45,444 nucleotides of DNA from an uncultured Pelagibacteraceae bacterium. Its GTDB lineage: Bacteria > Pseudomonadota > Alphaproteobacteria > Pelagibacterales > Pelagibacteraceae. Position numbers and translations under genes: made by a program. Shown one piece after another: positions 3,618 to 26,724 of the stretch (positions within the stretch are counted from its first letter, which is position 1; each line of letters opens with the position of its first letter). The notes under the pieces are model-generated. The model was given only the letters and a program-made list of their open reading frames with translations, had not been told where the DNA came from and did not search any database. The stretch lies in the NCBI GenBank assembly GCA_902516625.1, contig CABXYU010000005.1:1-45444 (forward strand). The letters are read 5' to 3'.

Positions 3618-4817
3618 ATGAAAATACTATGTGTATTGTATGATGATCCTAAGGGAGGAATGCCAAAATCGTATGCACTTTCAGAGTTACCTAAGATAGA
3701 AAAATATCCAGATGGAATGACTTTACCTTCGCCCAAAGGAAGAGATTATACTCCAGGACAATTACTAGGGTGTGTTTCCGGTGAGCTTGGTTTGAGAAAA
3801 TTTTTGGAAAGCAATGGTCATGAATTAATAGTAACTAACAGTAAAGATGGAGATGGATGTGAGGCTGATAAACATATTGTAGATGCTGATATTGTTATTT
3901 CACAACCTTTCTTTCCATATTATTTGACAAAAGAGAGAATTGCCAAGGCAAAAAATCTAAAGATGGCAATCACAGCAGGAATTGGTTCAGATCACGTCGA
4001 TTTACAAGCTGCGATGGATAATAAAATTGATGTTGTTGAGGTAACTTATTGTAATTCTAGATCTGTAGCTGAGCACATTGTTATGATGATTGTCTCAATG
4101 GTAAGAGACTACCACAATCAACATAGAATTGTTAACGAAGGTGGATGGAATATTGCTGATGCAGTACAAAGATCTTATGACGTTGAAGGTATGCATATCG
4201 GAACAGTTGCTGCGGGACGTATTGGTTTAGATGCATTAAGAAAAATGAAACCATTTGATGTTCATTTGCATTATTTTGATAGACACAAATTACCAGACGC
4301 TGTTGAAAAAGAGCTTAATCTTACATTTCATGAGTCTGTAGAATCGATGGTAAAAGTTTGTGACGTGGTTACAATCAATTGTCCTCTGCACCCAGAAACT
4401 GAGAATTTATTTGATGATGCAATGATAAGTAAAATGAAAAAAGGTGCTTATATTGTAAACACTGCAAGAGGAAAAATCTGTAATCGTGAAGCAATTGCAA
4501 AAGCATTGAAAAGTGGACAATTAAGTGGTTACGCAGGTGATGTGTGGTTTCCACAGCCAGCACCTAATGATCACGTATGGAGGACTATGCCACATCACGG
4601 TATGACTCCTCACACTTCTGGAACATCTTTGACAGCACAAGCAAGATATGCTGATGGAGTAAGAGAGATACTGGAATGTTTTTTTGAGGGTAAAGAAATC
4701 AGAAATCAGTATTTGATTGTTAAAGATGGTCAGTTAGCAGGTATGGGTGCTCACTCATACAGTAAAGGTACAGCCACTGGCGGTTCAGAAGAAGCTGCTA
4801 AATATAAGAAAAAATAA
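3618..4817 (+). CDS. fdh: NAD-dependent formate dehydrogenase
   Basis: Oxidises formate to CO2 with reduction of NAD. The protein has 399 residues, close to the about 401 of the Pseudomonas sp. 101 enzyme, and follows it almost colinearly. The known catalytic and cofactor residues fall at identical numbers: Asn146, Asp221 (NAD selectivity, in YFDRHKLP), Arg284 in NTARGK, Gln313 in WFPQPAP, and His332 in TPHTSGTS. The dinucleotide-binding loop is GTVAAGRIGL (about 195-204), and the C-terminus keeps the GAHSYSKG and GGSEEAAK segments. It is cytoplasmic, metal-free and a single gene, flanked by its own RBS and a strong downstream hairpin, so it is likely transcribed alone. It fits a C1-oxidising lifestyle together with the glycine-cleavage operon further on. 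Confidence 0.95.
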   Translation: MKILCVLYDDPKGGMPKSYALSELPKIEKYPDGMTLPSPKGRDYTPGQLLGCVSGELGLRKFLESNGHELIVTNSKDGDGCEADKHIVDADIVISQPFFPYYLTKERIAKAKNLKMAITAGIGSDHVDLQAAMDNKIDVVEVTYCNSRSVAEHIVMMIVSMVRDYHNQHRIVNEGGWNIADAVQRSYDVEGMHIGTVAAGRIGLDALRKMKPFDVHLHYFDRHKLPDAVEKELNLTFHESVESMVKVCDVVTINCPLHPETENLFDDAMISKMKKGAYIVNTARGKICNREAIAKALKSGQLSGYAGDVWFPQPAPNDHVWRTMPHHGMTPHTSGTSLTAQARYADGVREILECFFEGKEIRNQYLIVKDGQLAGMGAHSYSKGTATGGSEEAAKYKKK

Positions 4818-26428: not shown

Positions 26429-26462
26429 AAACCCCCAGCATTAATTTGTTGGGGGTTTTTTT
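26429..26462 (+). terminator. rho-independent terminator after the binding-protein gene
   Basis: A GC-rich stem (AACCCCCA with the later TTGGGGGTT) closes over an AT-rich loop and is followed by a run of T ending at 26462. It lies 17 bp after the stop codon. Confidence 0.9.
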
Positions 26463-26493
26463 GTAAAAAAATAAATTTCATTATATAATAAAT

Positions 26494-26553
26494 TAGTCCT
26501 GATTTAGAAAATAACTCTACTTGCTGGGACTTTAAACACAACGCTAAAGGAGA
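26494..26553 (+). promoter_or_regulatory. candidate SAM-II/SAM-V-type pseudoknot riboswitch
   Basis: Stem P1 pairs AGTCCT (26495-26500) with GGGACT (26526-26531). The loop opens with GATTTAG, as the SAM-II loop opens with GATTTAA. CTCT (26515-26518) and TTGC (26521-26524) in the loop can pair with GGAG (26549-26552) and with GCTAA (26543-26547, one T bulged) in the tail GCTAAAGGAG. SAM-II has the same order and a GCTAAAAAGG tail. The pseudoknot would bury the Shine-Dalgarno of the 55-aa ORF. Pairing was done by hand and the L3 segment differs from the SAM-II I remember. Confidence 0.5.
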
Positions 26554-26556
26554 AAA

Positions 26557-26724
26557 ATGAAACTAATAATACAATCAATCAAAAACTATTTTAAATCAAA
26601 AAAGGACAAGGGATTAGAGCCAGTATTCTTTGAAAAAATAGGTGATGAAAAAACATCAAGAGATGAAATGAAAAAAAATTTAATTAAAGCTTTAAAAAAA
26701 AATGGTTGGACTTTAAAAAAATAA
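26557..26724 (+). CDS. small basic protein of 55 aa, unknown function
   Basis: An ATG at 26557 follows AAAGGAG at ideal spacing and opens a 55-residue frame ending at a TAA. The protein is short, basic and soluble: MKLIIQSIKNYFKSKK, then a Glu/Phe segment (EPVFFEKIGD) and a Lys-rich end closing with NGWTLKK. There is no signal peptide or membrane helix, and the first 15 residues could form an amphipathic helix. The presence of a structured leader (a SAM-riboswitch-like fold) argues that it is a real, regulated gene. I do not recognise the family. A link to methionine or SAM metabolism is inferred from the leader only. Confidence 0.65.
   Translation: MKLIIQSIKNYFKSKKDKGLEPVFFEKIGDEKTSRDEMKKNLIKALKKNGWTLKK

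Follow-up and report, generated by a model that had tools for sequence, protein, structure and literature searches.

SAM riboswitches are chiefly familiar as regulators of methionine genes. Why would a leader of this kind stand in front of a gene for a tiny basic protein of no known family, as appears to be the case in an uncultured Pelagibacteraceae bacterium? The question is raised by one locus in a stretch of 45,444 nucleotides from this organism (hereafter, the window), where the original prediction described a pseudoknot leader resembling SAM-II and SAM-V. Our answer, which we regard as fairly probable when taken as a whole, is that a SAM-II-type riboswitch has been rebuilt as a direct clamp on the Shine-Dalgarno sequence and travels with the tiny gene as a mobile unit, low SAM leading to production of the protein, most plausibly in conflicts with phages or mobile DNA.

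Anatomy of the leader in the window

A conserved SAM-II-type pseudoknot leader occupies positions 26495-26552 of the forward strand, where its letters were checked, and the ATG at 26557 lies 4 nt past the leader end. The features of the locus are as follows.

26431-26463, +: intrinsic-terminator-like hairpin with a T run, 3' of the livJ-like gene (sequence)
26484-26489, +: TATAAT, -10-like hexamer; the leader begins 5 nt downstream of it
26486-26563, +: match to RF00521 (SAM_alpha), 23.0 bits, gathering score of 36 not reached
26495-26500 with 26526-26531, +: P1 stem, AGTCCT with GGGACT, five Watson-Crick pairs plus U26500-G26526
26501-26507, +: GATTTAG, opening of the P1 loop (sequence)
26515-26518, +: CUCU (CTCT), 5' strand of P2b, partner of the Shine-Dalgarno GGAG (sequence, alignment)
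26521-26524, +: UUGC (TTGC), 5' strand of the core pseudoknot helix P2 (sequence, alignment)
26532-26542, +: L3, TTAAACACAAC, 11 nt (RF00521 alignment, canonical SAM-II copies)
26543-26552, +: GCTAA(A), 3' strand of P2, with GCTAA at 26543-26547 and T26545 bulged; the interval includes GGAG (sequence, alignment)
26549-26552, +: GGAG, 3' strand of P2b and Shine-Dalgarno sequence (sequence, alignment)
26557-26724, +: basic reading frame of 55 aa, net charge +9, no known family (ORF, family scans)

P1, GATTTAG, CTCT, TTGC, GCTAA with its bulged T, and GGAG all lie where the original prediction had placed them. It had also put the ribosome site inside the pseudoknot, which agrees with the anatomy: the Shine-Dalgarno GGAG can itself form the 3' strand of P2b. 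The tail of the window leader reads GCTAAAGGAG.

Since the livJ-like gene ends in a terminator-like hairpin, the unit presumably has its own promoter, and the hairpin would insulate it from upstream transcription. Several leader and sRNA families of Rfam match this hairpin only, below threshold. TATAAT at 26484-26489, which we take to be -10-like from the consensus, suggests a transcription start at or beside P1. Among 110 distinct leaders the best -10-like hexamer begins 17-18 nt before GATTTA in 60. Full matches number 24 of 110 versus 7 in shuffled upstream regions, while matches of five letters out of six occur in 68 of 110 shuffled regions, which are AT-rich.

A loose descriptor (GATTTR..TTGC..GCTAAA) has one match in the window and 11 in total across 200 order-2 Markov windows, i.e., about 0.05 per window. 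A single window is therefore only suggestive, and it is conservation across relatives that settles the reality of the leader.

Conservation and covariation

A model was built from 18 leaders, which match it by construction. When 397 genomes of the order were searched with it, 52 of them yielded strong copies, 59 matches of at least 64 bits in all; a further 31 matches did not exceed 33.5 bits and were left out of account. Stricter search filters applied at this database size. All 18 convincing homologues of the 55-aa gene have the leader upstream, with another small ORF placed between the two in L027. The four weakest homologue matches (L030-L033) were dropped as unrelated. Mean identity over 600 sampled pairs from 72 distinct units is 89.7% for the leader versus 62.9% for the upstream 45 nt and 66.1% for third codon positions.

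Covariation was analysed in 61 leaders, 58 of them distinct. Five of the six P1 pairs change on both sides among the 58, in an alignment that was fitted to P1 and so favours it, and two of these five depend on a single leader, L068. P1 types include AGTCC/GGACT, AGTCT/AGACT, GTCCG/CGGAC, GTCTT/AAGAC and ATCCG/CGGAT. Standard pairs fill 97.8% of pair cells versus 94.2% after shuffling, and none of 500 shuffles reaches the observed values; slid structures give 41-62%. For P2 and P2b, 99-100% of cells hold a pair and there is hardly any variation, with one-sided changes only (C-G to U-G and U-G to U-A); in P2b, paired in 100% of cells over the 58 leaders, two of the four pairs vary, each on one side. 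Because P2 and P2b barely vary, covariation cannot prove the pseudoknot. The original prediction had proposed covariation of both helices as a check: P1 bears it out, while P2 is conserved without covarying. The core letters are kept almost throughout the 61 leaders (GATTT in 60, CTTGC in 59, GCTAAA in 60). Together with the sub-threshold RF00521 match, P1 covariation and the core letters support the SAM-II-like pseudoknot that had been claimed.

Some copies depart from the common form. In L121 (4076-4150, reverse strand) AATTT replaces GATTT and the ORF is intact. L076 (3981-4054, reverse strand) is a degenerate copy in which a mutated leader core and an ORF cut to 18 codons occur together. 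A shorter-loop leader of the GATTTAGATACTCTAATTGC type precedes small ORFs again in L140, L150, L152, L156, L162 and L164, labelled Alphaproteobacteria.

Relation to SAM-II and SAM-V riboswitches

RF00521 is the only riboswitch family that matches the window leader in a permissive Rfam scan. Genome-wide its match has an E-value of 0.0019 and ranks second to a metX-like leader (the gene was read by eye), which at 29.4 bits also stays under the gathering score of 36. Related loci behave alike: 13 of 20 were matched at the permissive setting (23.0-27.8 bits, E 0.03-0.62 in a joint scan), none of the 20 reached the gathering score and seven had no match at E 1. Across the order, RF00521 exceeds the threshold in 37 of 397 genomes and reaches E 0.01 or better in 334, which makes the threshold a bad guide for these genomes. 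In a search of the window's own genome up to E 10, SAM_V (RF01826) did not match the leader, nor did it match any of the 20 related loci scanned. Of the two Rfam checks that had been proposed, the RF00521 one thus yielded a match short of its gathering score and the RF01826 one yielded none, and membership in SAM-V is not supported.

The sole strong RF01826 match of the window's own genome is a metY-like leader (L001, 1459-1567; 76 bits); just before it, SAM-II matches weakly at 15.5 bits. SAM-II followed by SAM-V is a known tandem arrangement, which this leader resembles. Two further RNA family matches lie on the reverse strand of the window, a glycine riboswitch aptamer (RF00504, 16851-16939, 70.1 bits) and an rhtB sRNA (RF01814, 38900-38982, 82.7 bits).

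For comparison, canonical SAM-II was collected as 35 matches in 29 of 57 genomes of other Alphaproteobacteria, and 25 sequences were compared. These copies read about CGTGGTGATTTGAGCCGACCGGCTTGCGGCCACGTAAAATAAACCGCTAAAAGGTCGG. Their GATTT, CTTGC, TTAAACA and CGCTAAA are kept in the window leader, and the order of P1, loop and tail of the H-type pseudoknot is the same in leaders of the window type and in all 25. The translational metX leaders in particular share P1, the GATTT loop start, CTTGC, an L3 of the TWAAA... form and the GCTAAA tail, as well as the predicted OFF logic. In SAM-II, however, P2b has about 6 bp, while here it has 4 bp (CUCU/GGAG) and is fused to the Shine-Dalgarno sequence; SAM-II precedes methionine genes, whereas the leader described here precedes mobile tiny genes of no known family and scores below the gathering threshold. 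SAM-V resembles the present leader in two respects, a Shine-Dalgarno sequence that here, too, can pair within a short helix after the core, and occurrence in marine Alphaproteobacteria. It differs by a P3 hairpin in L3, whereas our leader has an 11-nt L3 without a stem (by inspection), a P2 of the SAM-II type and no RF01826 match. The leader is best called a SAM-II variant by descent, formal membership in RF00521 failing on score.

SAM-II and SAM-V surround SAM with a U:A.U triple round the sulfonium, a uridine that holds the adenine and an adenine that holds the aminoacyl end, as described in PMC6061858. In our own mapping, the corresponding letters appear to be present in the leader. An RNA ligand other than SAM seems improbable. 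It would fit the sub-threshold RF00521 score, the shortened P2b and the unusual downstream gene, but 59-60 of 61 leaders retain the putative SAM-contact letters, and L3 has the canonical form. It had been argued that L3 lacks the SAM-II sequence and that a variant ligand was therefore possible. The consensus L3 of RF00521 is UUAAAcAAgUCGCUAAA and that of the window is TTAAACACAACGCTAAA; the two match, so this argument fails. Homology points to SAM as the probable ligand, and by analogy the leader is expected to work as a translational switch of the SAM-II/SAM-V type.

The tiny protein

A complete small ORF begins 3-6 nt after GGAG in 58 of 60 fetched loci, in L102 via GTG. The two exceptions are L068, which runs off the contig, and L076 with its shortened ORF. 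We compared 99 distinct ORFs drawn from L065-L124 and L126-L205, which come partly from the same genomes. Single-linkage clustering of phmmer matches at E 0.001 placed 91 of them in one linked group, which takes in N-terminally extended, split and shortened forms. The remaining eight have no detectable similarity to this group; they form a group of three (L065, L066, L067), a group of two (L075, L205) and three singles (L150, L156, L196). Two small ORFs follow one another in L074, and the downstream one resembles the ORF directly behind the leader in L075. Median net charge is +10 for the 83 main-motif ORFs, and a median dN/dS of 0.16 over 72 distinct sequences of the common type indicates purifying selection.

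The tiny proteins that were scanned have no convincing family match in Pfam, PHROGs, PADLOC, NCBIfam or PDB sequences; a weak match to HicA (E 0.1) was rejected. The common type is modelled as two helices (pLDDT 88.4), without a structural match in PDB or among viral structures. The original prediction described a small basic protein without a known place in methionine metabolism, and the charge of +9, the lack of a known family and the absence of any link found to methionine or SAM metabolism genes are in line with this.

Most tiny proteins belonging to one group is what would be expected of a gene with a single job, and one such job is a plain response to sulfur starvation: an accessory gene of the flexible genome would help the cell through methionine or SAM shortage. 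In a SAR11 isolate under sulfur limitation, the transcripts with the strongest upregulation lay downstream of SAM riboswitches, many of them in a hypervariable region (PMC5069961), which would fit this explanation. It is a possible one, held tentatively, and the neighbourhood of the unit, described below, bears on it in both directions.

Distribution of the unit

A pattern scan of one genome each for 84,980 species matched at least 119 stretches. Among the 80 loci listed, the labels are Pelagibacteraceae or Alphaproteobacteria, with L201 (Gammaproteobacteria) as the one exception. As a further difference from SAM-II, the leader was seen in SAR11-type genomes, in some genomes labelled Alphaproteobacteria and in one contig with a gammaproteobacterial label. 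In L201 two tandem leaders with different small ORFs lie on the reverse strand from about 7407, directly after tRNA-Ser; the first has no ATG, GTG or TTG start at the usual place, and genes of the contig were read by eye as serS, ftsK and trxB. In a class-level draw of 190 genomes just two matched, that of the window and another from its family.

Phage carriers were sought in several ways. The strict DNA pattern had no match in IMG/VR; the lone match of a looser pattern (L125) was rejected for its ill-fitting P1 and tail. Searches with protein profiles, one for the 55-aa group and one for a neighbour, c1 (see below), found no viral carriers, and tblastn against phage records gave two unconvincing matches (E 0.4). 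In the open-access literature we recognised no paper describing the leader-gene unit, which does not imply its absence from all print.

Mobility and tRNA-bounded stretches

In the window the unit sits between the livJ-like gene and a permease gene that converges on it, with 382 nt from one stop codon to the other. The same site was compared in a genus-level sample of 30 loci, of which 15 had a short measurable gap, the window being included in both counts. In all 14 relatives with such a gap it measures 72-205 nt and the unit is absent; a tblastn search for the tiny gene at the livJ-permease site found it in none of the 29 other loci. Three loci found through the leader (L083, L104, L111) carry the unit at this very site. 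The simplest reading is that the unit was inserted at the window site, loss being the alternative. A second copy, whose protein is 82% identical, is located elsewhere in the window's own genome. Sequence comparison identifies leader and gene as a mobile unit: a given site has it in some genomes and lacks it in others, and it turns up again at sites unrelated to one another.

In nine distinct loci (L088, L089, L091, L101, L105, L108, L109, L131, L134) an intact tRNA-Met stands on one side of the unit and a duplicate of the tRNA-Met core on the other. The duplicated core is exact over 46 nt in all nine and over 63 nt in L109, the longer stretch being shorter or imperfect in some; the window copy has no duplicated tRNA-Met core. 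Core-to-core distance is 1.0-3.8 kb, the leader is 369 nt from tRNA-Met in five of the nine loci, and other small genes vary among the five stretches whose ORFs were listed. GGTCC repeats were found between the ORF and tRNA-Met in L086, L088, L105 and L109, not in L095. In L109 (4310-4470) they form a GGTCC/GGACC cluster that looks like recombinase arm sites, and likewise in L086, L088 and L105. Of 59 loci scanned, 16 have a tRNA or tmRNA gene no more than 1 kb away, versus about 3 expected if 33 such genes per 1.2 Mb are assumed, the loci not being independent. tmRNA is another common integration site, and the unit adjoins it in L082, L093, L094 and L123.

Tycheposons and other tRNA-targeting integrative elements of marine bacteria (PMC10872708) share with these stretches a tRNA border (here tRNA-Met) and variable cargo between tRNA-derived ends. 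The stretches described here differ in spanning 1.0-3.8 kb. A tycheposon-like element would carry its own tyrosine recombinase; no recombinase was seen by eye among the ORFs of five of the nine stretches; in L089 there is a borderline Phage_integrase match on the far side of the tRNA.

Could the tiny protein serve the mobility of the element itself, as a SAM-gated factor of small integrative elements, either excisionase-like or governing directionality? Its size and charge fit, and so do the nine loci inside a duplicated tRNA-Met core, the 369-nt spacing in five of them and the GGTCC repeats between ORF and tRNA in four of five examples. Most copies, however, have neither a nearby tRNA nor a duplicated core, there is no excisionase family match and the predicted two-helix fold is unmatched. 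We consider this role unlikely.

Restriction-modification genes and c1

C5 DNA methyltransferases (PF00145) were found in 65 of the 397 genomes, namely in 24 of 52 carriers of the unit versus 41 of 345 non-carriers (Fisher p 4e-8); as the carriers are related, these counts are not independent. Within carriers, 25 of 30 C5 methyltransferases lie within 10 kb of a copy versus 0.64 expected at random positions, and in 15 of 60 loci a C5 methyltransferase ORF lies within about 4 kb. Restriction enzymes near copies are of the SinI (L070, and by clustering L100 and L107), AlwI (L085) and NgoFVII (L096) types. Other neighbours are an HNH nuclease in L095, an AIPR protein in L080, a Z1 protein in L112, a ResIII helicase in L088 and, in L082, a type I methyltransferase/specificity protein. 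As for the window's own genome, its second copy has N6_N4 and D12 methyltransferases and an AlwI-type restriction enzyme beside it.

This association has limits. Many copies of the unit stand alone, D12 methyltransferases are not enriched (2/28 versus 2/28), and of the 28 carriers that have no C5 methyltransferase 26 have no D12 one either. The unit can therefore do without restriction-modification of these kinds. Type II restriction-modification islands are frequent neighbours of a unit that is likewise found by itself and in genomes where neither C5 nor D12 was detected. Co-location may merely reflect shared islands.

A protein of about 112 aa without a known family, c1 (3638-3973 on the reverse strand of L095, where its net charge is -6), neighbours the unit in 17 of 60 loci, 13 of which have it divergent from the unit at near-constant spacing. 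In L095, L096 and L100 c1 lies between a nuclease or restriction gene and the unit. In L085 its orientation is reversed at unchanged distance, and no flanking repeats were found round the reversed gene. Several genomes without the unit have c1 near methyltransferases as well. An obligate partnership was rejected, as c1 is present in 16 of the 39 carriers tested (of 52) and in 9 of the 41 non-carriers that possess a methyltransferase. A structural model of c1 (mean pLDDT 72.7, partly unreliable) found no match.

The linkage with restriction systems, including that of the second copy in the window's own genome, and the divergent c1 between nuclease or restriction gene and unit in three loci could be taken to mean that the tiny protein is a safety valve, restraining the restriction enzyme when SAM is too low for methylation of the chromosome. 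A single protein group would then have to act on a wide range of unrelated enzymes; moreover, many copies stand alone, and carriers lacking C5 mostly lack D12 too. These points make a safety valve rather improbable. The same carriers, 26 of the 28 without C5 that lack D12 as well, speak for the sulfur-starvation response, which in turn leaves both the clustering with restriction genes and the tRNA-bounded stretches unexplained.

The defence-gene neighbourhood is also compatible with an abortive or alarm effector: infection would drain SAM, e.g., through a phage SAM lyase, the switch would open and the basic protein would stop the cell or the phage. Phages with SAM-degrading enzymes used as counter-defence are known (PMC7877911), and the eight dissimilar ORFs of the 99 found behind the same leader may also be seen in this light. 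As the searches of Pfam, PHROGs, PADLOC and NCBIfam offered the protein no convincing match, such an effector is a somewhat doubtful candidate.

Weighing these possibilities, we favour a role of the tiny protein in DNA conflicts, phage, mobile element and restriction taken together, with the plain sulfur-starvation response as the main single alternative.

Proposed mechanism and implications

By comparison with relatives, leader and ORF form a conserved unit of SAR11-type genomes, whose RNA is predicted to fold as a SAM-II H-type pseudoknot; P1 is supported by covariation, and P2 is consistent with the fold but near-invariant. The leader keeps the letters that would surround SAM in the SAM-II and SAM-V structures, and its homology suggests that the RNA binds SAM. 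From the anatomy, the pseudoknot would close on binding, the CUCU/GGAG helix would cover the ribosome site and translation would be prevented; at low SAM the tail would be free and the protein made. Comparison of loci shows the unit at sites unrelated to one another, within stretches bounded by a tRNA and close to restriction-modification genes. The weakest step is the last: the tiny protein would act under SAM depletion, for which conflicts with phages or other mobile DNA are the most plausible setting, ahead of methionine synthesis.

A more specific version is offered as a speculation. The riboswitch may be the sensor of a mobile conflict module, in which a nearly unchanged SAM-sensing RNA releases a tiny effector when SAM is drained. 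It is likewise conceivable that this effector is mostly one protein group, occasionally swapped, and that phage counter-defence or host takeover is among the causes of the drain.

What is new here is what the leader controls and how the unit moves; that leader and gene make up a mobile unit could not be seen by the original prediction. Such copies may have been overlooked because those scanned fall under the Rfam threshold and their proteins are too short for most annotation. In these very abundant ocean bacteria, a close relative of SAM-II appears to be the most constant part of a mobile unit that often lies near DNA-methylation defence genes. If SAM is the ligand, mobile or defence genes take their cue from the level of SAM.
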